64,000 nucleotides of DNA from Dysgonamonadaceae bacterium (GCA_031275735.1 JAISOJ010000048.1:1-64000); one strand, 5' to 3'. Positions 350 through 29,746 are shown, numbered from the stretch's first letter. Notes: generated from the letters alone by a model not told the origin. Numbers and translations: made by a program.

Positions 350-739
350 TTAATTTATAGAATCTAATATGTTGTATAGCTGATTTTCTTCCATGATCGC
401 CACTTTTTCTCCTGCTTCCTGTAATTTTTTTATTTTCTTCATTTTAGAAGATCCGAAATTTTTACCAATGATTACATAATCTGTCTTACGGGATATAGAT
501 GTATTAATATCAGCACCGTATTTTTTTAGTAAAAATGCTAAATCTTCACGAGAGGAAAAACGGTCAAATATACCTGTCAGAACAATTTTTTTGTCATAGA
601 AAACAGTATCCCTGTTATTAACGATTGATAAATCCTGCATTTTTGTTTCATGTGAAATTTCACGTTTTTGTTTATCGAATGAATTGCGAGGATAAGATTT
701 TTGTTTTTTTTCGGGATACTGTAACGCATCCGGATCCAC
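350..739 (-). pseudogene. BRCT-domain C-terminal part of a DnaQ-like exonuclease gene (decayed)
   Basis: Translation contains FYDKKIVLTGIFDRFSSREDLAFLLKKYGADINTSISRKTDYVIIGKNFGSSKMKKIKKLQEAGEKVAIMEENQL, a clear BRCT pattern; the upstream minus-strand segment 737-819 encodes YKMEDHHNALADAKACALVYIEYLI (DnaQ ExoIII-like HxAxxDA motif) in a different frame. Confidence 0.7.
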
Positions 740-824: not shown

Positions 825-1343
825 CTAATAAATATTTTCAATTAGATTGCAGACCGACATTATCTGTTGTCCGGAGGTATGCTCGTGCCATTCATGGAAG
901 TCTATCAGGCGTTGCTCCATTGATTTCACCCATCTGTTGTGGGTCACCTGTTTTCGAATTAACCACCATACCCGCTCAATCGGATTCAAGTCAGGCGAAT
1001 ACGACGGCAAAAATATCAGTTCTATGCTCTCCCTGTAACGTTCTAATACTGGTTTTAAACGTTTGGCGTGATGAAAACGGACATTGTCTAGCACCATATA
1101 TATCTTTTTCCCGGTGAAAGCCCGTACACATTTAACAAGAAAACTGAAAAATGTTTTTGTGGTACCACTCTCCGCCGTATCCACGATCAGTTCGCCACTG
1201 TGCGGATTGACTGCCCCGAAAAGGGTTCTTCGCTCGCGCTTGCGCTGAGACTGAAACACTTTGGGCTGTTTCCCCTTTTCCGACCACGCATACGAAACAC
1301 CTGCCGTATTGGACAGCGAGGCCTCGTCTTCAAACAACACCAC
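825..1343 (-). CDS. IS630-type transposase, C-terminal DDE ORF
   Basis: MVLFEDEASLSNTAGVSYAWSEKGKQP...YMVLDNVRFHHAKRLKPVL...IELIFLPSYSPDLNPIERVWWLIRK: DDE-superfamily motifs of IS630 transposases; overlaps the upstream ORF in another frame. Confidence 0.85.
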   Translation of the reverse strand: MVLFEDEASLSNTAGVSYAWSEKGKQPKVFQSQRKRERRTLFGAVNPHSGELIVDTAESGTTKTFFSFLVKCVRAFTGKKIYMVLDNVRFHHAKRLKPVLERYRESIELIFLPSYSPDLNPIERVWWLIRKQVTHNRWVKSMEQRLIDFHEWHEHTSGQQIMSVCNLIENIY

Positions 1344-1863
1344 ACTGCCGGCGCTTCGTTCCTGAAGTTTTTTTTATTGCAGAAACTGCCTCTACACGCT
1401 CTTCGGCTTCGGGGAAAAAGCCTTTCCCTTTTTGATAACTTAAGCCAATCGAATGTAATATATTGTATATTTGAGCCTTCTTATAGCTGACACAAAATGT
1501 GCGGCGAATGTATTCCGATACCAACGCCCATGTCCATGTGCCGCTCGAAAATCCCTCTTCTTCCGGACTTGACAATACAACCTGCTTTAATTGCGCTTTT
1601 TCTTCCCTGCCCAGACGACTCGGACGACCTCTGCGAGGACGTTCTTTCAAGCCGTCAACGCCATGAGCATTAAACCGGTGTACCCAGTTGCATATGGTTT
1701 TGTGGCTCGTATTATATACACTTTGCAACTCTTCGGCTTTTTTCCCTAATGCTATCTGATAGACCGCATACAGCCTCACCCCCTGTGAAAACTTCTCATC
1801 CCTGCGTAATTGACCGGCTATTTCTTCCGCCGCTACGGTTACCTTTAGTCTTTCCTTTGCCAT
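1330..1863 (-). CDS. IS630-type transposase, N-terminal ORF (HTH domains)
   Basis: HTH-type N-terminus (RLYAVYQIALGKKAEELQSVYNTSHKTICNWVHRFNAHGVDGLKERPRRGRPSRL) typical of IS630 transposases. Confidence 0.8.
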   Translation of the reverse strand: MAKERLKVTVAAEEIAGQLRRDEKFSQGVRLYAVYQIALGKKAEELQSVYNTSHKTICNWVHRFNAHGVDGLKERPRRGRPSRLGREEKAQLKQVVLSSPEEEGFSSGTWTWALVSEYIRRTFCVSYKKAQIYNILHSIGLSYQKGKGFFPEAEERVEAVSAIKKTSGTKRRQCGVV

Positions 1864-3324: not shown

Positions 3325-5208
3325 CTAATTTTCCAGCTTCTTATACCAATTGTTGTAAAGCACGACCGATGTGGCCAGGATAATCATCGCACCGATACCG
3401 GCAAAAGTAAATTCTTTACATACCAAATAGATAGGAACTGCAACCAATCCCGTTTGCCAGATGATACCGGTGACTACATTCACCAGGTCGCGCCTGAAGT
3501 TCCGGTTTCGTTTAAAATTCGGATCTTCTGCTTCGACTAAGGCAGTGACCGGCGCCCAAAATCCCCAGGGACGGGTTTTCTTGTAAAAGTTTTTCAATGC
3601 TTCCGTTTCGGTAGGGGGAGCTGAATAAGTTCCTAAGAGGCAACCAACTACGGAAAACAACAGGATAATCGGAAAATAGTACAACGGCTCGCTCAGCAGC
3701 GTCCATTGAGAAGGCAATCCGGCAACGATATGCGTCATGACCAAAGGTAAAATCAGGGCGGGAATCATACCGGCAATCATTCCCCAGGCAAAACCGCGGG
3801 AATTGAACCGCCACCAATGCCATTTCAGGATGTTGGCGGCAATGTAACTGCCGTAAAGCGCATTCGTAACCCATTGCAACACCTGATCCACGTTTTGCGC
3901 TACGACGCCGAAAAAAATGCTGACGAGAACAATTACAATTCCGACGATGTAATTGGCATGAGTTGCTTGTTTGGGACTTGCCTGCGGCCTGAAAAATTTG
4001 ATGTAAATATCGTTAACAATGTAAGCTTGCGCGGCATTCAGGGTTCCGGCAAAAGTGGACATGAAAGCAGCTAAAAGTCCGGCGATTACTATTCCCGTCA
4101 GACCCACAGGAATGTAGGGATGGGCGATAATGGCAGGAAGCACCAGCTCGAAATCAATGAGGCCATCTAAGTTCCGGATGCCCGGTTCGATGTCTTTGAA
4201 CAAAATAAGACCTAATACGGCAATACCGGCAATCATCAGGTAACGGACGGGCATTAAAATGATGCTTACGAAACCGGACATTAAAGAGGCTTCGCGCGGA
4301 TTTTTGGTAGAAAGGATTTTTTGCATATCGTAGGTAGGAGCAGGACCTGCTACGGAAGCCAAAATACCTTTCAGCAGAACCATCCCAAAGAAGAAACTGA
4401 AAATATGGTATGCCGAATCGCTAATCGTCCGGTTAAATTCCGAAAAAACGCCTTGCCAATGCAGTTCCAGGGTTTTACCGAAACCGGGCGACATCCATCC
4501 GTCAGGAAGCAGGTGATGAAATGTTTCGGGAGTGATGTGCATAATCGCAATGATGGCTATGGTAATGGCAGCTAAAGTCATGATGATGTATTGGGCTACG
4601 TCTGCCCAGACAATAGACATCATTCCGCCTAACAAAGCATAGAATACCGCAAATAAAGTAAATGTAATTCCCCATAAATGAGGTATATATGCATCCGGAG
4701 CAGAGGCGAGGAAAGGAAAAACCGTCTTCAACGGCAGGAATATTTCGACGAATTTACCCATTCCGATAAAGCCGTAAGCCAACATTCCCAGACAGGAAAT
4801 GACGGCAAAAATGACAATGATGGCGTGCGAAAACCGGGCGTCTTTGCCATTTCCAAACCGAAAAGCAATCCATTCGGCTCCGGTGGTACATTCCGAACGG
4901 CGCAACCAGGCAGAGAGATAGACCATTAAAAATATCTGGTTAAATACAGGCCATAACCAGGGAATGTAAATGCTCTTGAGTCCGTAAACTACAGTGATGG
5001 CTACTAACCAGACTGTCCCCGAAATATCGAACATTCCCGAAGCGTTAGATAAGCCTAACATGTACCAAGGCAATGATTTACCTCCTAAAAGATATGATTC
5101 TAAATTCTTGGAAGCTCTCTTTTTCAAATATAAACCGATGAAAATGAGAAAACCCAAATAAATTGCAATGATTGCAATATCTACTCCATTTAACAATATC
5201 TCTTTCAT
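3325..5208 (-). CDS. Sodium:solute symporter (SSS family), likely manno-oligosaccharide/mannobiose uptake
   Basis: 627-aa multi-TM protein with SSS features (SYLLGGKSLPWYMLGLSNASGMFDISGT...); last gene of the mannan operon. Confidence 0.85.
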   Translation of the reverse strand: MKEILLNGVDIAIIAIYLGFLIFIGLYLKKRASKNLESYLLGGKSLPWYMLGLSNASGMFDISGTVWLVAITVVYGLKSIYIPWLWPVFNQIFLMVYLSAWLRRSECTTGAEWIAFRFGNGKDARFSHAIIVIFAVISCLGMLAYGFIGMGKFVEIFLPLKTVFPFLASAPDAYIPHLWGITFTLFAVFYALLGGMMSIVWADVAQYIIMTLAAITIAIIAIMHITPETFHHLLPDGWMSPGFGKTLELHWQGVFSEFNRTISDSAYHIFSFFFGMVLLKGILASVAGPAPTYDMQKILSTKNPREASLMSGFVSIILMPVRYLMIAGIAVLGLILFKDIEPGIRNLDGLIDFELVLPAIIAHPYIPVGLTGIVIAGLLAAFMSTFAGTLNAAQAYIVNDIYIKFFRPQASPKQATHANYIVGIVIVLVSIFFGVVAQNVDQVLQWVTNALYGSYIAANILKWHWWRFNSRGFAWGMIAGMIPALILPLVMTHIVAGLPSQWTLLSEPLYYFPIILLFSVVGCLLGTYSAPPTETEALKNFYKKTRPWGFWAPVTALVEAEDPNFKRNRNFRRDLVNVVTGIIWQTGLVAVPIYLVCKEFTFAGIGAMIILATSVVLYNNWYKKLEN

Positions 5209-5211
5209 AAC

Positions 5212-6390
5212 TCATAATTCATAACTCCCATTCATACACATGCGAGCGTTGTGGTAAGGGCATTTCCACGCGCCGGCTTTATCGTCCGTCCGGTTTTGTT
5301 TGCCGTCAGGGAAAACGCTCCAAACCCATTCGCCGTTTTCTTCGTCCCGGATGTATTGTTTGATGTACTCCCAACATTTTTTTGCTGTGTCCAAGTATTT
5401 TGGGTTTCCGGTGATTTGATAAGCATAAACGGAACCGGCCACTGCTTCTGCTTGTACCCACCAATGACGGTCTGCGTCAACGTGCATTCTTTCGGCTTCA
5501 TAAATCAGACTTCCGTCTTCCCGTATCCCTTCATAAGCCGCTTCAATCAGTTGTATGACCAACGGTTTTATCCTTTTCAAAAGGATTTCATCGTTCAATG
5601 TTTCCGCAGCTTCATAGAGTAACCAAACCGCTTCAATATCGTGTCCATAAGAAACGAGGGAAGATTTGACTTCCCATTGCTCGTTGAAAAAAAGGTTTAG
5701 GTGATGGGTTTCGGGGTGAATGATGTGGTGACAAAAAATTTGTATCAGCTCTTTTTGCGCCTTGATTAAATCCGGGTCTTTCCATACCCGGAGCAGATTG
5801 GTATAAGGTTCCAAGATATGAAGATGCGTATTCATGGATTTCGCTTCGTTGGCATCTTTTTCACTTAAACGCATGTCGCCAATGGCTTGCCAATCGCGTT
5901 GAAATGCTTCCAAATAACCGCCATATACAGGGTCGTGCGCCTGTTTTTCGATAAGCCGGAATAAGGCGATGCTTATTTCCAAAGCTTCGGGTTTGCCGGT
6001 CGCCCGGTAAAATTCGGAGTATCCGTACAAAGCAAATCCCTGTGCATAGGTCTGTTTCCGTAGATTTACCGGATTTCCTTTGCTATCTACTTCCCAATAT
6101 ACTCCGCCGTATTCTTTATCGGTAAAATAATCGAGGATGTATTGATAGGCGCGTTTGGCTATTTCTAAGTATTGCGAATTTTTTTCGAGACGGTAAGCGG
6201 CAGAAAAAGTCCAAAGTATCCGGGCGTTCAACACAATACTCTTATTGGCGTGTTTATGTAAACGCTCGTTTCCGTCGATACGTCCATAAAAACCGCCGTT
6301 CTCCCCGTCCACCATATTTTTTATCCAATAGGGGAGAATATTGTTTACCAGCTCGTTGTGCAGTTCTAATCGAAATGTTTCCATAATCAA
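5212..6390 (-). CDS. AGE-family 2-epimerase, probable mannobiose/cellobiose 2-epimerase
   Basis: (alpha/alpha)6-barrel AGE motifs: ARILWTFSAAYR, DANEAKSMNTHLHILEPYTNLLRVW, SYGHDIEAVWLLYEAAE, DRHWWVQAEAVAG; next to GH130. Confidence 0.87.
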   Translation of the reverse strand: MIMETFRLELHNELVNNILPYWIKNMVDGENGGFYGRIDGNERLHKHANKSIVLNARILWTFSAAYRLEKNSQYLEIAKRAYQYILDYFTDKEYGGVYWEVDSKGNPVNLRKQTYAQGFALYGYSEFYRATGKPEALEISIALFRLIEKQAHDPVYGGYLEAFQRDWQAIGDMRLSEKDANEAKSMNTHLHILEPYTNLLRVWKDPDLIKAQKELIQIFCHHIIHPETHHLNLFFNEQWEVKSSLVSYGHDIEAVWLLYEAAETLNDEILLKRIKPLVIQLIEAAYEGIREDGSLIYEAERMHVDADRHWWVQAEAVAGSVYAYQITGNPKYLDTAKKCWEYIKQYIRDEENGEWVWSVFPDGKQNRTDDKAGAWKCPYHNARMCMNGSYEL

Positions 6391-6396
6391 TGTTTT

Positions 6397-7602
6397 TTAG
6401 CTACAAGGCAAATGGCAAAAGGCCGCATTTTTATTTACTAATTTGATGATTGTTTCTACCGATGTTTGGGAACATTCGCCGTCGGCAGGTGTGTTCAGGC
6501 AATAATCGACTAAACGGTCGATGGTGGAGGTTGCCAAATGCATCCGGGTGTCGGAGGAGGCATAATAGATATAAACCGTTCCGTCTTCGTCGGCAATCCA
6601 GCCGTTGGAAAACAAGACATTGGATACATCGCCGATCCGTTCTTTGCCTTTAGGCGCCAGGAAATGGCCGGCTGGTTCGGCGATCACTTTTGCCGGATTT
6701 TTCAGGTCGGTCATGTACAGGTAAAGGACATAACGAAGCCCCGCGGCGCATGCCCGAACGCCATGAGCCAGATGCAACCAGCCTTGAGGCGTTTTGATAG
6801 GATGAGGCCCTTCTCCGTTTTTAACTTCTTTGATGGTGTGGTATCGACGGAAGTTGATGATTTTTTCTTCTTTGATTTCTGCTTTTGTCATGTCTTCTAC
6901 TAAAGCCCAACCGATGCCTCCGCCGGAACCGGCGTCGATAAATCCGTCTTGAGGACGGGTATATAGTGCATATTTTCCATTCACAAATTCGGGATGAAGC
7001 ACTACATTTCGTTGTTGTGATGCGGATTTCAAATCGGGGAGCCGTTCCCAGTTAATCAAGTCGCGGGTACGGGCAATTCCGCAGGAAGCAATTGCTGACG
7101 ATAAGTCGCCGGGGACAGCATGTGGGTCTTTCCGTTCGGCACAGAACAAACCATAAATCCATCCGTCTTCGTGCCGGGTCAGCCGCATGTCATAGACATT
7201 GGTTTCAATTTCTTCTCCGTTCCTGTCTTGGGGAGAAAGAACGGGAAGGGAAAGCGGGTAATCCCAAAACCGGAAATTATCAATACCGTTGGGACTTTCG
7301 GCTACGGCAAAAAACGATTTGCGGTCGTTGCCTTCTACCCTGACAAGTAGCACATATTTGTCGTTCCAACGAATAGCTCCCGAATTAAAAGTTCCGTTTA
7401 TCCCGATGCGTTCCAATAATCGCGGATTTGTTTCGGGATCGAAATCGTATCGCCAAATTAAAGGCGTATGCTTTGCTGTTAAAACCGGGTTTTTGTATCG
7501 TTGATAAATCCCGTTGGTCGTTGATTTTTTTTCGTTTTTTCGGGACAACAATATTTCGTGCTTCTCAAATAATTGCTTTACTTGCTGTTCAAATATCTCC
7601 AT
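6397..7602 (-). CDS. GH130 family, probable 4-O-beta-D-mannosyl-D-glucose phosphorylase
   Basis: [67 protein letters not shown]...[21 protein letters not shown]130_1-like. Confidence 0.9.
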
Positions 7603-7618: not shown

Positions 7619-10600
7619 TCATAATTCATAATTCCCCATAAGTATTTTGGGTAAAGCGGAAAATGTGCGGAAATCCGCTTCACCCGGGCTTCCCGGATAC
7701 GGAACGTAAAAATGGGAGGGACGGTTGTAGGCGTTTCTCCAAAATAAAATGTATGCTATTTTATAATCTTTGATAGTATTGTAAACGGCGTCGGTAAAAT
7801 ACTCCGAATAAGGAATTTTCTCCATTCCGGTTTCCGTAATCGCCGGGATTTTTCCGGATTTTTCCGCATAAGCGGTTATTATATCCAAGTTGATCTTCAA
7901 GTTTTTTTTGTATTTTTCTATTTGTTGAAATATTTTTTTCGGTTGTTGTTTTTCGTTTTCACCGTTGGCGTAACAGTCGAATCCTACGATGTCCACATAA
8001 TCATCGCCCGGATAACGTTCCATGTATTCGCTGATGTTTTTTGTTTCGGAAGGAGAAAAAGCATATAAAAGGTTGTGTACGTTTCTTGTATCGCGGAGGT
8101 ATTTTACGGTTGTTATCCACAGTTGTTTGTATTCTTCCGGCGTTGATTGTTTGCTTCCCCACCAGAACCAGTCGCCGGAATGTTCATGGAACATGCGGAA
8201 TATTATAGGGAGCGAATTTCCTTCGTCGTCTTTTAAGTCGAGGAAGAAATCGGCAATCCGATCTAACCATCCCAAGTATTTTGCGTGATTTTCACCTCCA
8301 GGAAGCACCGATTTGACTACGTCGTTCCGCGTGCAGTCCCAGGCATTACGACCGGTTACAATATTATCGCTATGCCAACTGACGGTGTTAATAGATCCTC
8401 GGTTATGCCCTTCCTGCATATAACGTTTCATGTTTTCGAAATAAATAGAATCCAGGTTATATTCGCGGCCCCGTTCGATGTGTCCGATATCCCAACCGTT
8501 GACCGCCGGGTATTTTCCGGTAACGTCGTGTATATCCGATCGATTAGGTTCGTTGTACCAGTTGTGTCCGTAAGCCAATCCATCTTGGTGTCCAAGCATA
8601 ATACCTTTATCCAAAAGTCGGAGCAGGCGGCTGTGCAAGGCTCGTGTTTCGGGAGTTGCGTTCCGGTCGGCAGGAGCATGAAAAGCTTTTACGGTGAGGA
8701 TTGCGGTTTTCAAATCTTTGTTGTCGGAAGAAGAGCCGGTCATTATTTGGAATGTTCCCGGCTCAATCACCCAATGCATCTTTTTGTCTAAAAATCCTAA
8801 TTTGCCTGGAGTGAGGGTAAATTGCGCTGTTTTGGTTTCTCCCGGTCTTAAATATATCCGAATAAAGTCTTTCAGTTCTTTCACCGGACGGGTTACTGTG
8901 CTGTATTCGTCGCGGATGTATAGTTGCACGATTTCTACGCCCGGAAGCGATCCGGTATTGGTGACCGGAATGCTTACGGAAACGGTTTCGTTGTCTGTGA
9001 TTTCCATTTTATCTAATTGGATGTCGCCGTATTGATAGGTGGTATAGCTTAAGCCGTACCCAAACGGGAAGAGCGGCGTATTGGGGCTTTCTTTGTAACC
9101 GTGGAAATACTGCGAGGGTTTGTGATTGTAAACCATTTGTATTTGTCCGGCGTGCCGGGGAATGGTAACCGCCAATTTTGCCGATGGATTTACTTTTCCG
9201 TAAAGGATTTCGGCAATGGCTTGCCCACCGTACATGCCCGGTTCCCATGCGTTTATCAAAGCGTCAGCATGGGTTGCCGCCCATTCGACGCCCAGTGGTC
9301 GTCCGGATATAAGTATGACGATGGTCGGTTTTCCGGATGCTTTTACTTTTTGAATCAATTCTTCTTGCAAGCCGACTAAGTGAATGTCCGATCGGTCGGT
9401 ATCTTCGCCGCTGGTACGTTCGTTCCAACGGAAGCGCATCATGTATTCGCCGGCAACGACGATATTCAAATCGGCTTCCCGAGCTTTCGTAGCGGCTTCT
9501 TCTACTTTTGCAACGTCCATGTTGCGCGGGTCCCATCCTTGATTGATAAATGTGAGATTGGTGTTAGGCGCTATCATTTGCAACCCTTCCAGGACAGTGA
9601 TTACATTTTCTTCTTTTTGGAGACTCGACCAGTCGCCCAAAATATTCTGGTCGTCGGCATTGATGCCGGTAATCATTATTTTTTTGTATTTTTTTTCGTC
9701 TAAAGGCAGGATGCCGTTGTTGGTCAGTAAAACGATGCTGTTACGAGCCGCTTCCAATGCCGTTTTCCGGTGTTCGTCGCTTAGGCGGATTTTCATTGAT
9801 TTTTCCGGGTCGCAATAGGCATTTTCATCGAATAATCCCAACAGGAACTTGGCAGATAGAATGCGCCGTACCGATTGGTCGATTCGGGAGAGGGGAATCC
9901 GTCCTTCTTTCACTAGTTCGCCCACTTGCTCGTTCCAGTGAATACCATGCATGTGCATATCCATTCCTGCCATAATGCTTTGGTAAAAGGCTTCTTTCAG
10001 TGATGGGGCCGTATGGTGAACGTCGTAGAGGTGTTCGATATCCATCCAGTCGCTGACAACAAAGCCTTTGAAACCCCATTCTTTTCTCAAGACGTCTTCC
10101 ATCAACCATTCGTTTTCGTGCGCCGGCACGCCGTTTACTTCGTTGTGGGCAGTCATGAGAGAACCTCCTCCTGCATTAATTCCGGCTTTGAAGGGCGGGA
10201 AAAATATTTCCCGTAGGGTTCGTTCCGAGAGGTCGGCGGGAGCAGCATTTGCTCCGTTGACAGGTTCGCTTCCGGCTACAAAATGTTTGATGCAGGCTAA
10301 GACATTTTCGGAAGAAAAATTTCCTTGATATCCCCGCGTGGTTGCCGCTCCCATTAAGGAGACCAGATAGGGATCTTCGCCGAATGTTTCGCCAACTCGC
10401 CCCCAGCGGGGGTCGCGGGCGACTTCAACATTAGGGTTGAAAGTCCAATGCAGGTTCATAGCCCGCATTTCGCGTGCGGTTTGTTGAGCAATTTGGTAAG
10501 CCATTAGCGTGTCGAACGAGCAAGCCAGGCCGATATTGGTCGGATAGACGGTGTTGTCTGGCGCATTCGCATTTCCATGAATAGCGTCTATTCCAATGAT

Positions 10601-10984
10601 TAAAGGGATTTTGAGTCGGCTTTGCATGGCTAAATTTTGCAGATAGTTGGCCTCTTCAATGGTGATGACATGGAGAAAAGAGCCGATCAGTCCTTCTTTG
10701 GTCAGGCGTTCTATTTCTTCGGTAGATACGCCCGGATAAAAGGCGTTGGCGGTGTTATTTTTCAAATCTTCTTCCGTCATGTTCCGTTCGGCATTGCGAA
10801 TGTGTTCCAATCCGACGAACTGGTTCATTTGCCCGATTTTTTCTTCCAAGGTCATGCGGCTTAATAAATCTTCTACTCGCTTGTCAAGCGGCTGATTTTT
10901 ATCCTTGTAAACAGGATTATCTGCTCTTGAAATTTTCATACACGCTAATAAAGCTAAAAAAACAATTATTCCTTTTTTTATCAT
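7619..10984 (-). CDS. GH3 beta-glycosidase fused to a C-terminal GH26 beta-mannanase domain
   Basis: N-terminal GH3 (RVEDLLSRMTLEEKIGQM..., FVVSDWMDIEHLY nucleophile region, FnIII-like tail) followed by GH26 (LGHQDGLAYGHNWY..., IIFRMFHEHSGDWFWWG acid/base, PAITETG nucleophile). Likely start MIKKGIIVFLALLACMKISRADN at 10984, overlapping the upstream stop (TAATG). Confidence 0.9.
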   Translation of the reverse strand: MIKKGIIVFLALLACMKISRADNPVYKDKNQPLDKRVEDLLSRMTLEEKIGQMNQFVGLEHIRNAERNMTEEDLKNNTANAFYPGVSTEEIERLTKEGLIGSFLHVITIEEANYLQNLAMQSRLKIPLIIGIDAIHGNANAPDNTVYPTNIGLACSFDTLMAYQIAQQTAREMRAMNLHWTFNPNVEVARDPRWGRVGETFGEDPYLVSLMGAATTRGYQGNFSSENVLACIKHFVAGSEPVNGANAAPADLSERTLREIFFPPFKAGINAGGGSLMTAHNEVNGVPAHENEWLMEDVLRKEWGFKGFVVSDWMDIEHLYDVHHTAPSLKEAFYQSIMAGMDMHMHGIHWNEQVGELVKEGRIPLSRIDQSVRRILSAKFLLGLFDENAYCDPEKSMKIRLSDEHRKTALEAARNSIVLLTNNGILPLDEKKYKKIMITGINADDQNILGDWSSLQKEENVITVLEGLQMIAPNTNLTFINQGWDPRNMDVAKVEEAATKAREADLNIVVAGEYMMRFRWNERTSGEDTDRSDIHLVGLQEELIQKVKASGKPTIVILISGRPLGVEWAATHADALINAWEPGMYGGQAIAEILYGKVNPSAKLAVTIPRHAGQIQMVYNHKPSQYFHGYKESPNTPLFPFGYGLSYTTYQYGDIQLDKMEITDNETVSVSIPVTNTGSLPGVEIVQLYIRDEYSTVTRPVKELKDFIRIYLRPGETKTAQFTLTPGKLGFLDKKMHWVIEPGTFQIMTGSSSDNKDLKTAILTVKAFHAPADRNATPETRALHSRLLRLLDKGIMLGHQDGLAYGHNWYNEPNRSDIHDVTGKYPAVNGWDIGHIERGREYNLDSIYFENMKRYMQEGHNRGSINTVSWHSDNIVTGRNAWDCTRNDVVKSVLPGGENHAKYLGWLDRIADFFLDLKDDEGNSLPIIFRMFHEHSGDWFWWGSKQSTPEEYKQLWITTVKYLRDTRNVHNLLYAFSPSETKNISEYMERYPGDDYVDIVGFDCYANGENEKQQPKKIFQQIEKYKKNLKINLDIITAYAEKSGKIPAITETGMEKIPYSEYFTDAVYNTIKDYKIAYILFWRNAYNRPSHFYVPYPGSPGEADFRTFSALPKILMGNYEL

Positions 10985-12246
10985 TATTCCAGTATTTTTT
11001 GATAGAATTGGTATCGGATTTCCCACCAGGAAGCAGGCACATCGTGTCCCTGATCGGGGAAAATATAATATTGTTTTTCCGAATTTATCCGGTTGTATCC
11101 GGCAAAATTGGTGTGCGGGGGGCAAACTTCGTCTTGCAATCCGACAGCCATAATAACAGGGCATTGGATTTGCGGCGCCAGATTTTTAATGTCAAAATAG
11201 CTCAATACTTCGTAGATATGGTCCCAAGTAACGGAAGGATTTTCTTTCCGGTAGTTTTCAAAATCTACTCTGGGCCAATGGACGATTTTGAAATAGTCTT
11301 TGTAGTCGGAAAGGAAGGGGATGAAAGGCGCAGCAGCTTTAATTCGATGGTCTAAAGCGCAGGCGGCTAAAGTGAAAGCGCCTCCTTGGCTTCCGCCTTC
11401 GGCGACGATTTTTTCCGTATCTATTTCCGGGCGGGAGGATACGAAGTCGATGGCGCGCACCAAGTCCATGAAAGCGCCGCGGTAATAGTATGTTTCTTTG
11501 CTTTCCAATCCGTATGTAATCCATTTGCCGTATTTGTTTCCGGCTTCCAATAGTCCTTGCCCGCGTGTGGAGAGGACAAATTCAGCGAAACCGGGATTGT
11601 TGTCCGGATTAGGAATCCAAGGTTTGGAACCGTAACCCATGTAGGAAATGATGACGGGGTGTTTTCCTTTTTTGACAGGAACAACGTAGTATCCTTCAAT
11701 GGTTTCGTTACCAAAGGATTTCATTTTTACGTGATACACTTTTCTGATCTTGGAGGAGGATTTTTTCAATTCGGACAGTTGGTACTCCGGTTTTACCTGG
11801 TCTAATTCTTTTCGGGTACTGTCCCAAAATGATTGAAAATCGGGTTGGGCATCCCCCGGAGAGATAATCTTTTCGGGTTCATAGCCGATGTTGAATTTTT
11901 TTTCTTCACTTTTTTGTCCGTTTGTTTCCTGGTAGATGCAGCAACGGTAGAAACCCGGCGCAGGGAAAGCGAATGTGAAAGTTGTTTGAATAGAGTCATT
12001 TGCATATATTTTAATTTGTTGTGAAAAAGAATATACCGGCAGATAGTCGTCGGAAGTAATGTCCAGATGAATTTGCGATGCAATTGATTGGTTTGTCTGG
12101 TTTTGTAGGACAACTGCAATTGTTCCTTTTTCATCTCCGTAAAATACCCAGTTGTCCCGGATATGGAAAGACAGATCCGGAAAGTTATCTGCCTGTACTA
12201 CAACAGACAGACTGCATAGAAAATAGATTAAAATCGTTTTTTTCAT
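10984..12246 (-). CDS. CE7-like acetyl esterase (acetylxylan esterase/cephalosporin C deacetylase family)
   Basis: GYYVVPVKKGKHPVIISYMGYGSKPW...STRGQG...AEGGSQGGAFTLAACALD...VGLQDEVCPPHTNFAGYN...GHDV: RGQ, GxSQGG, D and H motifs of CE7. Confidence 0.85.
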   Translation of the reverse strand: MKKTILIYFLCSLSVVVQADNFPDLSFHIRDNWVFYGDEKGTIAVVLQNQTNQSIASQIHLDITSDDYLPVYSFSQQIKIYANDSIQTTFTFAFPAPGFYRCCIYQETNGQKSEEKKFNIGYEPEKIISPGDAQPDFQSFWDSTRKELDQVKPEYQLSELKKSSSKIRKVYHVKMKSFGNETIEGYYVVPVKKGKHPVIISYMGYGSKPWIPNPDNNPGFAEFVLSTRGQGLLEAGNKYGKWITYGLESKETYYYRGAFMDLVRAIDFVSSRPEIDTEKIVAEGGSQGGAFTLAACALDHRIKAAAPFIPFLSDYKDYFKIVHWPRVDFENYRKENPSVTWDHIYEVLSYFDIKNLAPQIQCPVIMAVGLQDEVCPPHTNFAGYNRINSEKQYYIFPDQGHDVPASWWEIRYQFYQKILE

Positions 12247-12276: not shown

Positions 12277-13287
12277 TCAATTTTCTCTCATTATTTTTCT
12301 GATTTGAAGCCCCCATTCTTTCAGGTCATTGTCCGTCCAGTTACTTGCGGGCGAAGCTGGGGATTTTATCATGGAGCAAGTTTCGTCTTTGTCTGAAATC
12401 GACCAGGCTACCCAGCTCAGTCGGTGTTCATCCATCCATTGCAGCCAACTACTCCATTCCATTTGGTCGATAAGTCCGTCGCCAGAGGCTTCCATGCCGG
12501 CGCATTCCGATACGAAAAGGGGTAAGCCTTTTGAGAGGGCATAAGCGGCTTTGTTGCGCAAATCCTGTTTATGGGTGGCGGCGTAGAAATGAAGGGTGTA
12601 CATGATGTTGTCGTAACCGGTAATCGGGTCGTCGGCGACAATGTGTACATCCTGATCCCAATGCGGACTACCGACGAGAATGATGTTGTCTTTGTCAATG
12701 GAACGAATGGTCTTAATAATCTCTATGGAATAGGCTTTTACGTCCGGCCAAGGCATATCGTCCCACGGTTCGTTGAATATTTCGTAAAAGATATTCGGCG
12801 TGTCTTTGTATTTAGTGGCGATTTGGGTGAAAAATGTTTTTGCTTCTTCGAGGTGAATGTAATGTGCGTGCCAATCGATGATTGCATACATATCGTTTTC
12901 AATCGCCGCATCAATTACCGTTGTCAGGCATTGCATCGCTTTTTCCGGTTGCCGCAGGTAAGCTCCATCCGGTTCAACGCCGATAGCTGCCCGGAGGAGG
13001 TTCGGTTTCCAGTCTTTTTTCAGCCATTCTACTGTTTCTTTGGCGTAAAAACGCGGCCACCATTGATGCCATCCTAGACTCACGCCGCGCAGAACAATTG
13101 TGTCTCCGTTCCGGTCGGTTAATGAAGCGCCTTTTACCGCTAATTGACCATGTTTGCCCACGAAAGTAGTATCGACGTCCTGTTCTGCCGGATGGTTGTT
13201 TGCTCTTTCGCAGGCGAAAACGGAAATTGTGAGCAGGCAAGCAAACAATAGATTTTTTTTCCGGTTTTTTGTTTTTTCTGATTTCAT
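12277..13287 (-). CDS. GH5 family glycoside hydrolase (endo-mannanase/glucanase), lipoprotein
   Basis: LVIF-type lipobox (TISVFAC), IFYEIFNEPWDD acid/base, LFVSECAGMEASG nucleophile; start set at MKSEKTKNRKK, which removes the overlap with the upstream gene. Confidence 0.87.
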   Translation of the reverse strand: MKSEKTKNRKKNLLFACLLTISVFACERANNHPAEQDVDTTFVGKHGQLAVKGASLTDRNGDTIVLRGVSLGWHQWWPRFYAKETVEWLKKDWKPNLLRAAIGVEPDGAYLRQPEKAMQCLTTVIDAAIENDMYAIIDWHAHYIHLEEAKTFFTQIATKYKDTPNIFYEIFNEPWDDMPWPDVKAYSIEIIKTIRSIDKDNIILVGSPHWDQDVHIVADDPITGYDNIMYTLHFYAATHKQDLRNKAAYALSKGLPLFVSECAGMEASGDGLIDQMEWSSWLQWMDEHRLSWVAWSISDKDETCSMIKSPASPASNWTDNDLKEWGLQIRKIMREN

Positions 13288-13295
13288 TTTACTTG

Positions 13296-14660
13296 TTATT
13301 TTAGTGATGGTATTTCGCCGCGTGAAATTACTTTTTCGTTGGCGAAAGCGTTTTTCCAATAGGCGGCGTTTGCATGTTGATGCGCTTCACTGTTGAAAGC
13401 GCTTCCGGAAAGGTTATTTGTTCTTTCGTAATCGTACCACGACATAAACCACGACCACGTAGCGCCGGCGTTCCACTGTTCGGTAATTCCGGCCACGTTT
13501 CCACATTCGCTGAGGGCGATTATTTTATGGGGGAAACGGTTTTTCAATGCGTTGTATTCTTGCAACATTCCGCGGGCTTCCGGTTTGTTGTACATATCCC
13601 GTCCGATGATATCCACATATTCGTCGCCGGGATACCAATCATTGTCGTTGAGTTCGGCTGTCCAGACCCAAATCAGGTTGTTCAATCCTTTTTCCTGAAA
13701 GAAGTCGAACATGATTTTCCAAAGCTCTTTGCAAGGTTGAGCGCCTTTTGCGCCCCACCAAAACCATCCTCCGGCGGCTTCGTGCAGGGGTCGCCAGATG
13801 ACGGGTATATTTTTTTGTTTCAAAAGTAAAAGGTTATTGCTTATTTTTTCCAAATCGGCTTTGATTACGCCGTTTTCGTAAGTTCCTTCCCGAACGGCTT
13901 TGGAAATATCGAACGAAGTTTTGTCCGTATAAAACTCATAATTGTTGCTTCCCTGACCGACAGGTACATTCCAGTGCCACATAGCGGCGACTATTCCGTT
14001 GTTGTTCCACCAGTCTTCCACGACTTGGGTATTTTCGTAATTAATCCAGTTGGCAGGAGAGGCGTAGAGGTGGATGTAATCGAAAGCGTTCAGGGCAGGG
14101 TATTTCCCTGTGTGATGATAGACCCATTCGGCCTCGTTGGTATTCCAGTTGACGTTGGCAACTGTACCGGAAATGATTTTTTTTCCATGATTTTCTTTCA
14201 GGAAATTGTATAGTTTTACGGCTTCGGGGGAAGGGGTTTTTGTTACTAAGGCGCTGACTTCCACCGGCGGTAAAGCGTCTGTGGTAAAAGTCAGGGAAAA
14301 CGGTTCGGGATTCAATTTACCGGGCAAGGCTTTTATGGAATTTTTTTCCAGTATGAGCGTGTATTCCGTTTTTTCGTCCAATCGATCCAAATATACGGTC
14401 AATGTATTTTCCGAAGCAATCGCTTCCTCGACATCAGTTCCGTTCAACTTCATTTTTGTTTCATCAATGACGGTAATTTTCCTGTCGAAAGTAAAAACGA
14501 CGCTATCGGTCTGCGGCGAAACCACAGCGTTGTTTGCCGGAACAGTTGAAACTAATGCCGCTACGGATTCCTCCTCAAGGAGATCGTTGTTGTCTTTGTC
14601 GTCGCAGGCAAAAAAGAGCGGCGCAATAAATCCTACTATGAATAATAATTTATAGTTCAT
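13296..14660 (-). CDS. GH26 beta-mannanase with N-terminal Ig-like (Big_5/SbsA-type) domain, lipoprotein
   Basis: Lipobox LFFAC; SSTVPANNAVVSPQTDSVVFTFDRKI-type Ig domain; IPVIWRPLHEAAGGWFWWGAKG and KIIALSECGN catalytic motifs. Confidence 0.92.
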   Translation of the reverse strand: MNYKLLFIVGFIAPLFFACDDKDNNDLLEEESVAALVSTVPANNAVVSPQTDSVVFTFDRKITVIDETKMKLNGTDVEEAIASENTLTVYLDRLDEKTEYTLILEKNSIKALPGKLNPEPFSLTFTTDALPPVEVSALVTKTPSPEAVKLYNFLKENHGKKIISGTVANVNWNTNEAEWVYHHTGKYPALNAFDYIHLYASPANWINYENTQVVEDWWNNNGIVAAMWHWNVPVGQGSNNYEFYTDKTSFDISKAVREGTYENGVIKADLEKISNNLLLLKQKNIPVIWRPLHEAAGGWFWWGAKGAQPCKELWKIMFDFFQEKGLNNLIWVWTAELNDNDWYPGDEYVDIIGRDMYNKPEARGMLQEYNALKNRFPHKIIALSECGNVAGITEQWNAGATWSWFMSWYDYERTNNLSGSAFNSEAHQHANAAYWKNAFANEKVISRGEIPSLK

Positions 14661-14782: not shown

Positions 14783-17137
14783 TTAATTAATTAATGTTAC
14801 CTTTGAAACGATCATGTTCTGACCTCCGAAAATGATAGCCGTTGTTGACCAGCCGTCACTGACGTTTAATATTACATCCAGAATGGCTTGTGTCAATACA
14901 ATTTCGTAGGTAGTACCGTCTGCCGGTACACTTACAGATCCCCATTGTGGATCAAAATTCGGATCGTCGGGGATAGCTACTTTGCTCCAAGCGGCATCTT
15001 GCAATGCAAATTGCGGATTTTCCGCAGTTGCTGTATAATAGAGTTTCAGTATTGTACCGGCTCTAACTCCCTCAAACGATTCTTTATATATACGCAAGGT
15101 ATTCGCCCAATTTCCAAAATCGACCGTTTCTTCCGAAATTACCGTTTCAGCCGGCGCACTTCCTGTGAAGATGGATACTTTAGAAACAATTGCGCCTGCT
15201 CCGGTCAACAGTATGGCCGATTGACTCCAACCATCGGAAACCTCCAAAATCGTATGGAGAATATCGGCAGTAAGAACAAATTCTACTTCTGTTGTGCCTT
15301 CGGGAAGGCTTACCGTACCCCATTGCGGATCAAAATTCGGATGGTCGATCGTTAATTTTGTCCAATTGGCATCGCTAAATGCGATAGAAGCGTCGGAAGC
15401 TATGGTTGATAGAGTCACTTTCATTTTGGAACCTGCCGGGACATTTTCGAAATATTCTTTGTTCAAACGTACCGGTTCGCCCCAGTTCAATTCATAAAGT
15501 CCTTCCCAAATGACTGTTTCGATAATGCCAGCACCTATTACCGGAATGGTATAAACGGCTTCTCCGTTGGAGGAAACAAGTTTCAGTTCGGTGTTGCCGC
15601 GGGCATTGTTGGGAATGGCAATGTACAATTTCGGCGCGTCGAGGATATATTTCGCTGAAATGCCGTTTATTTGTACATCGGTTAATTTATCGCCGTTTTC
15701 AATTTCAAGACTTAATGCGCTCCCTGCGTGAATTTCAGCTTTTGGCCCCGGCGGGTTGGGTATGTATGCAAAAAGGGGCGCTGTTATTTCCAATGTGGAT
15801 TCTACGGTTTCGCCGTTTGCCATAGTCAGGACAAATTTTCCCGAAACGGCATTCAACGGAACGGTTACAGTCAAGTTGTCCGGTGCGGAAGGCGCAACTT
15901 CTACTATAACGCTATCGGTTACAGTTGTGAAGGTTACGGCAACGACTAAGTCCAGATTGCGGCCTTGCAAGACGACGTCGGAACCTCCTGGTGCTGGTTT
16001 CGGGCTATAGGAAACGAGGTCGGGTTTCTGCGTCACAATGGCAAGTGGAACGGTTTTACCGCTTGCTGTGTTTAGTTGCAACTCGCCGCTTGTAGCTTTT
16101 TCGGGCATCTTCACTTTGATTTCGGTGGCGGATTGGGAACTTGGGGCCACAGCTTCGTCTACTCCGGGGAATTGGATCGTGGTTACCAGTTCCAAATTTA
16201 TACCTGTAATTGTGATTTCATCGCCGTCCCGCAGTTCTTCGCTGGGCGTGATTTTCAATTGGGCAGGCATTGCAACGCCTATATTCGCAATTACTACTTG
16301 TACTCCTGAAGCAGGTATCATCACGATTGCGCCATCGCTTACGTCGTTGGGGAGCGTAAATTTAAGCGCATCGTTTTCTACCGTAAAAGGCGTTTCGGTA
16401 CCGTTAGGCATTGCTACTTTCACTACCAAATCCAGGTCTTTACCTGCTGTGGCAATCTCTTCACCGGGTTTTTTGTCCGTTAAGTCCAAGACTTCGTTCA
16501 CCGATGGGAGTACTACTTGCAAAGGCTCCAACGTTTGATATTCGAGCGGAATAGGATCGTTATTCGCCAAAATAACAATACCGGTTTGCGCTTCTGCCGG
16601 AAGTGCAAGCTCAATTTTGGTGCGTTCCCATTTTATAAAATCTTTCCCTTCTATCTCTACTTTATCCGAAAAAATAACTTTTTCTATCAAGTTGAAATAA
16701 TTACCTTCGATAGTTAAAACTTGACCGGCTTTGATGGGTTGGGGAGTCATCTTGGTAATTTCAATCGGCTCTGAAATAGTTAATGAATCTTTCGAACTCA
16801 ATTCGAGATTATTGGGCCCAATCAGTTTAATGATTCCCGCTACGGTTTCCTGCGGAACAAGCACTTTGATTAACTTGCCGTCAATAACTTCAATATCGGT
16901 AATTTCAATATTGTTTGGCAGAATTACTTTGGTAATTTTGTCCAGGTTTGTACCTGCGAAACTTAATCTTTGTCCGCGTAAAGCCGGATTCGGACCGAAT
17001 GCTTTTAATGTTATTTCTTTACTACTCAACGAATTGGTGTCAAACTCTTCGTTTTCGCAAGCCGAAAAAATAAAAGCCGAACAAAATACGACAAGAAGTA
17101 TTTTCTGAATATTTGATATTAAATTTTTCTTATTCAT
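14783..17137 (-). CDS. Surface glycan-binding protein with multiple IPT/TIG-like repeats and two C-terminal repeated domains
   Basis: Lipobox FIFSAC; repeats of the type 'P.ITKMTPQPIKAGQVLTIEGNYFNLIEKVIF'; duplicated C-terminal segments (FDPQWGTVSLPEGTTEVEFVLTADIL... / FDPQWGSVSVPADGTTYEIVLTQAIL...). Confidence 0.8.
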   Translation of the reverse strand: MNKKNLISNIQKILLVVFCSAFIFSACENEEFDTNSLSSKEITLKAFGPNPALRGQRLSFAGTNLDKITKVILPNNIEITDIEVIDGKLIKVLVPQETVAGIIKLIGPNNLELSSKDSLTISEPIEITKMTPQPIKAGQVLTIEGNYFNLIEKVIFSDKVEIEGKDFIKWERTKIELALPAEAQTGIVILANNDPIPLEYQTLEPLQVVLPSVNEVLDLTDKKPGEEIATAGKDLDLVVKVAMPNGTETPFTVENDALKFTLPNDVSDGAIVMIPASGVQVVIANIGVAMPAQLKITPSEELRDGDEITITGINLELVTTIQFPGVDEAVAPSSQSATEIKVKMPEKATSGELQLNTASGKTVPLAIVTQKPDLVSYSPKPAPGGSDVVLQGRNLDLVVAVTFTTVTDSVIVEVAPSAPDNLTVTVPLNAVSGKFVLTMANGETVESTLEITAPLFAYIPNPPGPKAEIHAGSALSLEIENGDKLTDVQINGISAKYILDAPKLYIAIPNNARGNTELKLVSSNGEAVYTIPVIGAGIIETVIWEGLYELNWGEPVRLNKEYFENVPAGSKMKVTLSTIASDASIAFSDANWTKLTIDHPNFDPQWGTVSLPEGTTEVEFVLTADILHTILEVSDGWSQSAILLTGAGAIVSKVSIFTGSAPAETVISEETVDFGNWANTLRIYKESFEGVRAGTILKLYYTATAENPQFALQDAAWSKVAIPDDPNFDPQWGSVSVPADGTTYEIVLTQAILDVILNVSDGWSTTAIIFGGQNMIVSKVTLIN

Positions 17138-17155
17138 GATTGTAATTATTTGTAA

Positions 17156-18433
17156 TTAGGGTACTACACGAATGTTGTCTATTAATATAACCGGATCGCA
17201 GTTCGTACCGACGGCGTCTTTTTCATTGAATTTTTCAAGTCCGAAATTGGTCAGGTAAATATCCAAATTATTAAATGTATTCGGTAGTTGTTGCAACGAT
17301 CCACCCATAAATCCGATATCTATACCGGCATTGTTATATTTAAATTCAGAAAGAGGAATTGAAATAGTTTCCCAACCATCAGTTGTATAAGAACCGGTTG
17401 TTTGCCAGGGAATCCAAAATGCGCGAGCGTATTGATTGCTTTGATCCCAAAGCGGGTCGTTGTTATTTACCGGAGGCGCAAAATAAAATACCATCGGAAG
17501 TCCTGTCCATGCTTCCAATACATTTACTTCAAATTTCAAAGTAGAAGTAGCCGGATCACTGGAAAACAAATTATCAGTGCCATAACCATGATTTCCGCCA
17601 AAATAATAAAGCAATGCGTCGGTAGGGCCATTTGAGTAAACATCGGCAGCAACAGTGCCTGAAAAGCGTGCATAATTTCCTGTCAAAGCAAAATCGGGAT
17701 CATTTTCGACAAACGAAGGTGTATCCCAATCGTAACCTTTATTGCCTATACCTTCAAAGTCCATAATCCAACCGCGGTCGTCGTGGAAAACATCTTTGGA
17801 ACGCCCACTACTACCATACAGCGTTTTTACTTCAATGGCGCCTTTTATATCCATTGCGGGGGCTTTGAATACTATTTTGTTTTTTTCCACGCTTACCAAA
17901 TCCGAAGTGGGTACTTCATAGTCGCCGATGAACACTTTTATCAGACTGAAGTCGGGAGTTAAAAAGTAATCTCCGATAAGGACTGCTTCACTGCTTTCGG
18001 GCACTTGTTCGCATTTGATTCGGGTAAGTATCGGAGCTGGAATTTTTACTTCAAAGTCGTAATCAATCGTGTCTTTGGCGCCCGTAACAAAATACAGTTT
18101 ATCGGTTTCCAAGGTTGGTAAATCTTTCGGCACGTTCACAAAAAGCGTGTTTTTGGTAATCATATTAACATTCAACAAGGCTTTTACATCGTTGAACCAA
18201 ATTTCCTGAACACTTGTCAGATTTTCACCGATAATGAGGATGTTTTCTTCCATATAAGCGCCGGTGAGCAATTGTCCTGCTAAATTGCTGTCTTGATAGC
18301 GGATGTAATGGATCGTCGGCAGGCCATCGGTCGTTTCGTATTTTCCGGGCGTTTCTTCTTCGCATGATGTAAATAGGAGCGAGGAAAAGAAAAGTAATAC
18401 CGGAAGTATTTTATTTATATTATTAAATTTCAT
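17156..18433 (-). CDS. Surface glycan-binding protein (IPT/TIG type, SusE/F position)
   Basis: Lipobox LLFTSC, YMEENILIIGENLTSVQEIWFNDVKA IPT-like repeats and a glycan-binding-like C-terminus; directly follows SusD. Confidence 0.78.
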   Translation of the reverse strand: MKFNNINKILPVLLFFSSLLFTSCEEETPGKYETTDGLPTIHYIRYQDSNLAGQLLTGAYMEENILIIGENLTSVQEIWFNDVKALLNVNMITKNTLFVNVPKDLPTLETDKLYFVTGAKDTIDYDFEVKIPAPILTRIKCEQVPESSEAVLIGDYFLTPDFSLIKVFIGDYEVPTSDLVSVEKNKIVFKAPAMDIKGAIEVKTLYGSSGRSKDVFHDDRGWIMDFEGIGNKGYDWDTPSFVENDPDFALTGNYARFSGTVAADVYSNGPTDALLYYFGGNHGYGTDNLFSSDPATSTLKFEVNVLEAWTGLPMVFYFAPPVNNNDPLWDQSNQYARAFWIPWQTTGSYTTDGWETISIPLSEFKYNNAGIDIGFMGGSLQQLPNTFNNLDIYLTNFGLEKFNEKDAVGTNCDPVILIDNIRVVP

Positions 18434-18451: not shown

Positions 18452-20266
18452 TTAATAATGGTATTGACTTAAATCGTAATCAATCGGGTCTTCTGCTAAA
18501 TGCGGATTCATTTGCAAGTCGGTCGATGGGAACGGCATAGTAAATTTAGCATGCGTAAACGGTTTACCATCAGGTGTTTCTTCGTTAATGCGCGGTGAAA
18601 CTTTACCGGTATCATTGCCTTTATCATCTTTTTCATTTTTAGGATAACCGTCTGTAACGCCCCATGAGTTCCAACCTTCATTTCTGTAATAATCATCAAG
18701 GCCGGCATAATTTTTACGGTTTTGTCCGTTGAGGTAAGCAAGCGCTTCATCAGGCTTGTAATAATGCCAACGTACAATGTCGTACCAGAAATCGCCTTCA
18801 AATGCCATTTCAAGGCGACGTTCTTTGAAAATGTCTTCCCAGGTGATGGACGATTTTTCGGGAATACCGGCTCGCTTGCGGACTTCGTTGAATGCCCAGA
18901 GTGCTTCGGCGTCGGTAGTTGAAGCGGCATTACCGAGAATGGCTTCGGCATAAACCAGATAAACATCTGCCAAACGCAAGATATGAGTAGCTAAGCTGGT
19001 ACCACGTCCGATCATCGGCACTCCAAATTCGCCTAAGTGGTCGGCATTGTTACCTACAATGTGTTTTACGCAGTTTGCTCCTGTGGAGCTATGAAAAGTA
19101 CCCAATACGTTGCCGTAGAATTTGGTAAAATCGAAACCTTGGTTAAAGCTTACCTGCTGTTCGCTGGCGTTTGTTTTTGTAGGGCGGTTTCGCCAGAAAT
19201 ATTCATACACGTCGCCGTACATCATCATGGTGGCTTTACGGCGCTTGTCGATATTGTTGCGATTGGGTGAAAGCGCTCCGGTCGGGTTAGAACCGTCAAA
19301 TTTTTCGCCGAAAGCTTCTTGCAAATCGAGTGATGGTCCTGTCCAACTGCCCCACGAGTCTGCTTCGGAAAATCCGGATGGAGTCAAATCACATTGCAAG
19401 TCATTCATCGCTGTCCAGTAATTGTCGGCGGCAGTGACCCAGCGCCATGCAATCAGGCTTTCGTCGTCGGTATTGTGGCTACCACGGAAAATGTCGGCAT
19501 ATTCAGCCGTCAATTCACGTCCGCTTTCACGTACTACTTTTTGTGCATATTCTTTTGCTTTATCCAAATCATCCTGGTTTCGGTCGCCGTTACGTCCATA
19601 GCCCGATTTGGTCAGATATACTTTAGACAGCAATCCGTAAGCGGAATATTTATCCAAGCGTCCTTTCGCATTATCTTCCGGTAACCATTCGATGGCCTGT
19701 TCCAAGGTCATTACGATGTAATCATATACATTTTCAATTTTAGCCCTGTACAGTTGGTTGTATTCTCCGGTATTCATCAGTTCCGTATTGTTGTGTACAA
19801 TGGGTACTGCACCATAAATACGTACCATAAAGAAATAGGCCATTGCTTTCCAAACCAGAGCTTCGCCTTTGGCGGTATGTCGTCCTGTTTCGGTAGTTCC
19901 GCTACCGGCGTAGAGATCAATATTTTCCAATATTGTATTGGCTCGTGCGTTTACCGCCCAGAGTGAAGCGGCCATGCTTTTTACTTCTTCCATGTCGTCG
20001 TTGGGCGTAAGCAACCAGAAACCATTATCCTCTATGAAATAATTACCTGATTGACAATCTCCTACACGTAACCATCCCCGGAAAAAGTCAAACCAGGGCA
20101 CTGTGTATAACGGATTTACGGCTTGCAGGCATTGTTCGTCATTTGTATAGAATTTGGCCAGCGTGTAGTTGCCTTTATCGGGGCGATTGAGAAAGTCTTC
20201 ACACGACGATATGTTGGCCATACCGATTATAAGCAGTAACAGTTTTATGAATTTTATCTTTTTCAT
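18452..20266 (-). CDS. SusD/RagB family outer-membrane lipoprotein
   Basis: Lipobox NISSC; EDFLNRPDKGNYT..., RLADVYLVYAEAILGNA...NEVRKRAGI...IFKERRLEMAFEGDFWYDIVRW. Confidence 0.96.
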   Translation of the reverse strand: MKKIKFIKLLLLIIGMANISSCEDFLNRPDKGNYTLAKFYTNDEQCLQAVNPLYTVPWFDFFRGWLRVGDCQSGNYFIEDNGFWLLTPNDDMEEVKSMAASLWAVNARANTILENIDLYAGSGTTETGRHTAKGEALVWKAMAYFFMVRIYGAVPIVHNNTELMNTGEYNQLYRAKIENVYDYIVMTLEQAIEWLPEDNAKGRLDKYSAYGLLSKVYLTKSGYGRNGDRNQDDLDKAKEYAQKVVRESGRELTAEYADIFRGSHNTDDESLIAWRWVTAADNYWTAMNDLQCDLTPSGFSEADSWGSWTGPSLDLQEAFGEKFDGSNPTGALSPNRNNIDKRRKATMMMYGDVYEYFWRNRPTKTNASEQQVSFNQGFDFTKFYGNVLGTFHSSTGANCVKHIVGNNADHLGEFGVPMIGRGTSLATHILRLADVYLVYAEAILGNAASTTDAEALWAFNEVRKRAGIPEKSSITWEDIFKERRLEMAFEGDFWYDIVRWHYYKPDEALAYLNGQNRKNYAGLDDYYRNEGWNSWGVTDGYPKNEKDDKGNDTGKVSPRINEETPDGKPFTHAKFTMPFPSTDLQMNPHLAEDPIDYDLSQYHY

Positions 20267-20284
20267 ATTTTTTATGTATTAAAA

Positions 20285-29277: not shown

Positions 29278-29630
29278 GAAAAATTTCTTTCTAATAGAGA
29301 ACAAAAGTAAATATTTTTTTTCTAAACAAGTAATTTTTTGTGTTTTTGTCAACCTGTTAATTATGCAACTTGAGAAATATATACCTCGTCTGCGTTATGC
29401 GCATAAATTGATAATATTATATTCGTTATCATTTTTCAAAAATAGATAAAAAATAACCTAACAATTAAAAAGAAAGATAAAAAGTATTGCAATTATTTGT
29501 CCTTCAACTGGAAATTTGGATTCGGTTTCGATTAATGCTGCCTTTAAATTAGAAAATAAAGAGATAACAGTGGGATTAACGGTTTGTTATACAAAATGCC
29601 GGATATTATCAACGCGTACAAAAAACAAGA

Positions 29631-29746
29631 GGCTGTCTCAAAAGTGCGTCATCCCGCACTTGAGGTGGGATCTCCTGTGTCTTTCAGGGGATTGCGGGTC
29701 AAGCCCACAATGACGAACACACCGCAAGAGGCTTTTGAGACAGTCC
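29631..29746. repeat. Nested palindromic intergenic repeat (MITE/REP-like)
   Basis: Outer arms GGCTGTCTCAAAAG / CTTTTGAGACAGTCC and inner arms CGTCATCCCGCACTTGAGGTGGGAT / ATTGCGGGTCAAGCCCACAATGACG. Confidence 0.75.

Follow-up and report, generated by a model that had tools for sequence, protein, structure and literature searches.

Does a single gene of a Dysgonamonadaceae bacterium (GCA_031275735.1) encode two complete glycoside hydrolases, of families GH3 and GH26, and if so, what would two such catalytic sites do on one polypeptide? The gene lies in the window, the stretch of 64,000 nucleotides (JAISOJ010000048.1:1-64000) that was analysed as a whole. The original prediction was that one protein combines endo-cleavage with terminal removal, possibly with product channelling. 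The reading favoured here, with a probability of roughly 0.7, is that of a gene fusion, particular to this lineage, among the periplasmic components of a β-mannan/glucomannan PUL, in which, judging from relatives, a likely β-glucosidase and a mannobiose-releasing GH26 would alternate on oligosaccharides.

Two complete enzymes in one reading frame

Translation of the window yields a frame of 1,121 amino acids with no internal stops, in which a signal peptide is followed by a complete GH3 (N and C domains and an Fn3-like domain), a six-residue linker and a complete GH26 (Table 1). The four Pfam domains bear out the expectation that one frame holds both enzymes in full, and the catalytic motifs are intact as anticipated, with SDW and its putative nucleophile D312 in the GH3 half, and FRMFHEHSGDWFWWG (E934) and PAITETG (E1051) in the GH26 half. 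D312, as well as G526 and E527, is invariant in a 58-row alignment. Although the maximal open frame reaches 11164, the correct start is that at 10984, as a signal peptide follows it directly and the upstream AXE1 gene ends there in a TAATG overlap. This overlap with the stop of the AXE1 (CE7-type) gene also places the fusion inside the operon.

A frame of this kind might result from an assembly or frameshift artefact in which two adjacent genes are merged by a missing base, and the incompleteness of the source MAG (2.43 Mb, 114 contigs, 76% complete) gives this idea some room. The identical architecture is, however, carried by an independent MAG at species level, Dysgonamonadaceae bacterium Im510_bin99 (JAISNS010000230.1), of the same genus as the window genome; the labels L039, G425 and L131 all denote this one contig. 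The two fusion proteins are 87% identical and gap-free across the junction (84% nucleotide identity), and L039 also has the remainder of the operon, with the surface GH26, CE7, GH130, and epimerase, through to the symporter. Moreover, neither genome retains the signal peptide of GH26, a loss that lies beyond the reach of a single-base error. The recurrence of the in-frame fusion and the shared loss of the signal peptide lead to the rejection of an artefact, the probability of which is close to nil, and the question of assembly error raised at the outset is answered by a second MAG that is colinear, without insertion or deletion at the junction. Separate translation of the GH26 half is likewise rejected: near the junction, Met codons are confined to M748, in the tail of GH3, and M796, within GH26, and a signal peptide follows neither of them.

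Purifying selection acts on both halves within one frame. Comparison of the window with L039 gives dN/dS values of 0.072 for GH3 and 0.126 for GH26, at a dS of about 0.7-0.8 (pairwise NG86, rough), and these low values indicate that selection keeps both halves in one frame. Over a 15-residue segment spanning the junction, the ratio is 0.42 (pairwise NG86; noisy, as the segment is short), and the linker is unconserved, reading AFHAPA in the window versus TDNCLLS in L039.

Table 1. Features of the GH3-GH26 gene and the surrounding operon (positions counted from the first nucleotide of the window).
Feature	Position	Strand	Basis
Sodium:solute symporter, likely disaccharide importer	3325-5208	-	PF00474
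Mannobiose 2-epimerase-like protein	5212-6390	-	PF07221
GH130, likely mannosylglucose phosphorylase	6397-7602	-	PF04041
GH3-GH26 fusion gene, 1,121 aa	7619-10984	-	Open frame, four Pfam domains, same fusion in L039
GH26 domain, BoMan26A/CjMan26C type	7634-8668	-	PF02156 (residues 773-1061, E 8e-50), structure matches, alignment
GH26 nucleophile E1051	7832-7834	-	PAITETG motif
GH26 acid/base E934	8183-8185	-	FRMFHEHSGDWFWWG motif
GH26 loop 2 (IERGREYNLDS)	from 8479 downward	-	Alignment
Six-residue linker AFHAPA (residues 767-772)	8669-8686	-	Between GH3 end ...TAILTVK and mature GH26 start DRNATPET
Fn3-like domain of GH3 half	8726-8935	-	PF14310 (residues 684-753, E 9e-24)
GH3 C-terminal domain, with E527 (SGED motif, 9404-9406) as putative acid/base	9044-9736	-	PF01915 (residues 417-647, E 1e-54)
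GH3 N-terminal barrel domain, with D312 (10049-10051) as putative nucleophile	9854-10852	-	PF00933 (residues 45-377, E 4e-68)
Signal peptide, residues 1-21, likely cleavage SRA|DN	10922-10984	-	By inspection: MIKKGIIVFLALLACMKISRA|DN
AXE1-family acetyl esterase (CE7 type), immediately upstream of fusion	10984-12246	-	PF05448, E 2e-69
GH5 endoglucanase-type enzyme	12277-13359	-	PF00150; top PDB hit is the cellulase 5i2u (E 1e-111)
Separate GH26 with Big_5 domain, lipoprotein, likely surface endo-mannanase	13296-14660	-	Cys followed by acidic residues (CDDKDNND)
Two putative surface glycan-binding proteins (TIG; SGBP_B)	14783-18433	-	Pfam
SusD-like and SusC-like uptake pair	18452-23524	-	Named from sequence by inspection

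The locus and the origin of the fusion

The operon runs in the order SusC, SusD, two glycan-binding proteins, GH26 lipoprotein, GH5, CE7, GH3-GH26, GH130, epimerase, and sodium symporter. A SusC/D pair, glycan-binding proteins, GH26, GH130, 2-epimerase and transporter characterize the mannan/glucomannan PULs of Bacteroidota, and all are present here, in the same order as in relatives. The initial assignment to a mannan locus holds, in the sense that one protein with two catalytic sites and a predicted export signal lies in a β-mannan/glucomannan PUL. Upstream of the SusC gene, a GH77 4-alpha-glucanotransferase with CBM20 domains is encoded (24487-27165, minus strand).

Several other features are found in the window. 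An IS630-type element (825-1863, minus strand) consists of two transposase ORFs, the HTH part at 1330-1863 and the DDE_3 part at 825-1343, which overlap by 14 bp, a two-ORF layout in which the halves are usually joined by frameshift; a small stand-alone BRCT-domain ORF (353-739, minus strand) adjoins it. T9SS-tailed proteins are encoded at 27181-38610 and 58508-61879 (both minus strand), including an M6 peptidase, a 1,544-aa multi-domain protein, a propeller protein, and a DUF2436 protein. No kinase domain was detected in the T9SS-tailed two-component-regulator propeller protein, and no T9SS tail in a related propeller protein at 34964-36250.

The junction of the fusion (at ~8,660-8,690) can be compared with the ends of the separate proteins. 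Unfused GH3 orthologues terminate in ...DLKTAILTVK or ...DLKTAIVTVKQ, and in unfused GH26 relatives an initial lipoprotein signal peptide (..LFSCKQK..) precedes ..D.NATPET. The fusion reads DLKTAILTVK-AFHAPA-DRNATPET, that is, an entire GH3, six residues and a mature GH26, and its junction falls exactly where GH3 naturally ends and mature GH26 begins. It would thus appear that a complete GH3 gene was joined in frame to the next gene, a BoMan26A-type GH26, which lost its lipoprotein signal peptide in the process. The lack of a signal peptide in the GH26 part, which had been pointed out from the start, is real but expected, since the lipoprotein signal peptide of the unfused homologues is exactly the piece lost at the junction.

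The two genes are neighbours in many relatives. Among 70 GH3 loci, which are those fetched with the fusion protein and have a GH3 at least 55% identical, GH26 is directly downstream of GH3 in 27, within 3 kb in 2, fused in 1 (L039) and absent from 33, and 7 are at the sequence end; the notion that the two families are usually encoded by separate genes is borne out in most relatives. The order GH3-GH26-GH130 is found in several Bacteroides loci (L040, L047, L073), GH130 adjoins GH26 in many relatives, and a GH26 after GH3 usually precedes GH130; the order in a close relative (L077/G401) is GH3-GH5-GH26-GH130. In Bacteroides ovatus, bacova_03399 (GH3) and bacova_03400 (GH26) are annotated as neighbouring genes (PMC5217682).

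Among 1,274 genomes counted, a drawn, non-exhaustive sample (393 order, 41 genus, 48 family, 396 phylum, 395 class), only the window and G425 have a GH26 in a frame exceeding 1,050 aa. Other long GH26 frames (700-978 aa) were considered as further GH3 fusions; those scanned held carbohydrate-binding, T9SS-tail, GH5 or F5/8 domains, and no GH3. In the open-access literature searched, neither the strings “GH3-GH26” and “GH26-GH3” nor the exact architecture was found. The domains and the type of PUL are known, while the combination of GH3 with GH26 is uncommon and apparently new. The GH3-fused lineage is small, comprising two genomes, most relatives do without a fusion, and any adaptive benefit of the fusion itself is hypothetical.

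Other partners have been joined to the same type of GH26. In the GH26 tree, the window and L131 (another label of the L039 contig) pair with full support in a five-member clade (98/99) whose other members are L129, fused to GH5, and L077 and L130, which are unfused; L138 extends this to six members (93/87), with supports above the five-member level being moderate. L129 (G419, same genus; L129:1037-3130) encodes a GH5-GH26 protein of 698 aa, the GH5 half of which is 62% identical to the endoglucanase-type GH5 of the window and the GH26 half 66% identical to its fused GH26. In the 778-aa protein of L138 (L138:6962-9295, G239), the N-terminal domain matches CmMan5A (1uuq, E 7e-109). Another CmMan5A-type GH5-GH26 fusion, L150_723 (L150:723-3230, G687), the only fused one of the two GH26 copies in L150, lies elsewhere in the wider GH26 group, and these different clades suggest that the Man5A-type exo-mannosidase fusions of L138 and L150 may be of separate origin. 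Three partner types (GH3, endoglucanase-type GH5 and Man5A-type) occur in one small GH26 clade, beside unfused members, which suggests that fusion is at least repeatedly acceptable, and perhaps favoured. Separately, L134:5088-7595 (G428) encodes GH26 followed by a SASA esterase domain, and L135:1851-4169 (G419) a CBM48/esterase followed by GH26.

Predicted location and activities of the two halves

The L039 orthologue begins with MIKKGIIGFLVLITSMEISRA|DN and shares SRA|DN with the window. The window N-terminus contains a lipobox-like LLAC, but the Cys is absent at that place in L039, and the residues that follow C15 (MKISRA) are non-acidic, so that neither the conserved lipobox Cys nor the acidic export signal of a surface lipoprotein is found. 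Given that the orthologue lacks the Cys, a type I signal peptide is favoured by inspection, and a soluble periplasmic location is probably the simplest reading. Of the two locations initially envisaged, the periplasm is favoured and the surface is not supported. Unfused GH26 homologues have, by inspection, a lipoprotein-like signal peptide with no acidic export signal, and the fusion to GH3 may have freed GH26 from membrane anchoring.

The best PDB matches of the GH26 half are BoMan26A (4zxo, E 8e-91) and then CjMan26C (about 3e-78). The GH26 fold and the HE and TE glutamates are present, with E934 and E1051 aligning with the E188/E292 motifs of BoMan26A, and AlphaFold models this half mostly at >85 pLDDT. 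Loop 2 (ERGREYNLDSI) aligns without gaps with ELGGTHNLDKV of BoMan26A and ELGHTANLDAV of CjMan26C. BoMan26A is a periplasmic enzyme with mannobiose (M2) as its main product, in which loop 2 restricts the cleft beyond subsite -2 (PMC5217682). The GH26 half thus likely belongs to the BoMan26A/CjMan26C group and is predicted to release mannobiose from non-reducing ends. An endo role is unlikely for it, as these enzymes are its closest solved relatives and it retains loop 2 along with the two catalytic Glu; the endo enzyme of the PUL is likely the separate surface-lipoprotein GH26, which lacks the long loop 2 in the alignment. The endo-cleavage of the original prediction is therefore not supported for the fused GH26. 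Nevertheless, BoMan26A is not strictly exo, 18O labelling giving some -3 occupancy (PMC5217682), and limited endo action is accordingly possible.

The GH3 half has the N and C domains, Fn3-like tail, SDW nucleophile and Glu acid/base of its family and is modelled mostly at >90 pLDDT, and its nearest PDB chains are mixed (JMB19063; a β-xylosidase; periplasmic β-glucosidases). A review lists β-mannosidases in GH1, 2, 5, 113, and 164, and GH3 as β-glucosidases acting on glucomannan fragments (PMC10492685). In Roseburia, GH3 enzymes take Glc off the non-reducing ends of glucomannan fragments produced by GH26 and leave manno-oligosaccharides uncut (PMC6385246). Together with the endoglucanase-type GH5 in the operon, these observations favour a putative β-glucosidase, which is the most likely assignment from family knowledge and PUL context. 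The terminal removal first envisaged would, for GH3, more likely be that of glucose than of mannose, as GH3 is absent from the β-mannosidase families of the review.

Proposed alternation on glucomannan and its rivals

In the scheme proposed, the surface GH26 and GH5 would cut the polymer, SusC/D would import the oligosaccharides, and CE7 would strip acetyl groups. In the periplasm, GH3 would take the glucose capping non-reducing ends, and GH26 would remove mannobiose (or Man-Glc) there as far as the following glucose, with the two activities taking turns on a single soluble protein; the disaccharides would then pass via the symporter to the epimerase and GH130. Glucose at the non-reducing end would block this type of GH26, an obstacle that a glucosidase on the same chain would remove. 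With mannan, the periplasmic S. copri GH26A yields 88% dimers, but with glucomannan dimers make up only 34% and trimers 50% (PMC12704710), and with fewer dimers from glucomannan, a helper for GH26 makes sense. What is proposed is an exo/exo relay on glucomanno-oligosaccharides by the fused GH3 and GH26. It is doubtful that this extends to one oligosaccharide being trimmed alternately, glucose by GH3 and mannobiose by GH26, without leaving the protein, and to the mannobiose-releasing GH26 repeatedly accepting as fusion partners enzymes that remove whatever stops it (glucose, single mannose, acetyl groups). Two AlphaFold models are each good for one half, according to the family supplying the rows, and neither places both active sites.

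An endo/exo bifunctional mannanase, in which GH26 cuts internally, GH3 takes terminal mannose, and products are channelled between the sites, would be in keeping with GH26 being mostly an endo-mannanase family and with the -3 binding tolerated by BoMan26A. This reading is nonetheless improbable, in view of the mannobiose-releasing closest relatives, the endo-restricting loop 2, the separate GH26 lipoprotein already in the endo role, and the inactivity of Roseburia GH3s on manno-oligosaccharides in a family unlisted among β-mannosidases. A tolerated fusion without gain, where a deletion joined two adjacent co-exported enzymes whose domains work independently, is a far stronger contender that falls only a little short of even odds; it is compatible with the activities assigned above and denies the relay. 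The adjacency of the two genes in many relatives, the short and unconserved linker and the unfused state of the same GH26 in close relatives all speak for it, and constraint on the halves alone is compatible with neutrality of the link. Against it, the fused form has persisted to a dS of about 0.75 with both halves constrained, and the same small clade has separately been fused with endoglucanase-type GH5 and Man5A-type domains. As for the alternating exo-enzymes preferred here, the order of glucose and mannose in glucomannan is irregular, and an exo-enzyme that removes mannose pairs should stall at glucose. The natural fusions, whose partners are a likely glucosidase, a GH5 of endoglucanase type and an exo-mannosidase of Man5A type, together with unfused relatives, constitute a ready-made test of tethering.

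Among known systems, BoMan26A (B. ovatus; 4ZXO) and CjMan26C (2VX4-2VX7) resemble the fused GH26 in the catalytic Glu and loop 2, and BoMan26A is a periplasmic mannobiose-yielding enzyme in a mannan PUL (PMC5217682), as proposed for the fused GH26. Both are stand-alone enzymes, whereas the fused GH26 of the window has no signal peptide of its own and stands behind GH3. Bacteroidales PULs of the bacova_03399/03400 type carry the same two families side by side as separate genes, fused only in the window and L039. In L129, L138 and L150, the same or a related GH26 is C-terminal in a fusion, as in the window, but the N-terminal partner is GH5 and not GH3. The bimodular GH26|GH5_4 enzyme of Segatella copri likewise unites two glucomannan catalytic domains in one exported PUL protein; it is predicted to be at the surface and endolytic, with an N-terminal GH26 and GH5_4 as partner, in contrast to the C-terminal GH26 and GH3 partner of the window (PMC12704710). 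Finally, RiGH3A/RiGH3B and RiGH26 of Roseburia intestinalis show the same division of labour on glucomannan oligosaccharides as is proposed here, but they are separate proteins, with the GH3s being cytoplasmic, whereas the window would combine both activities in one exported protein (PMC6385246).
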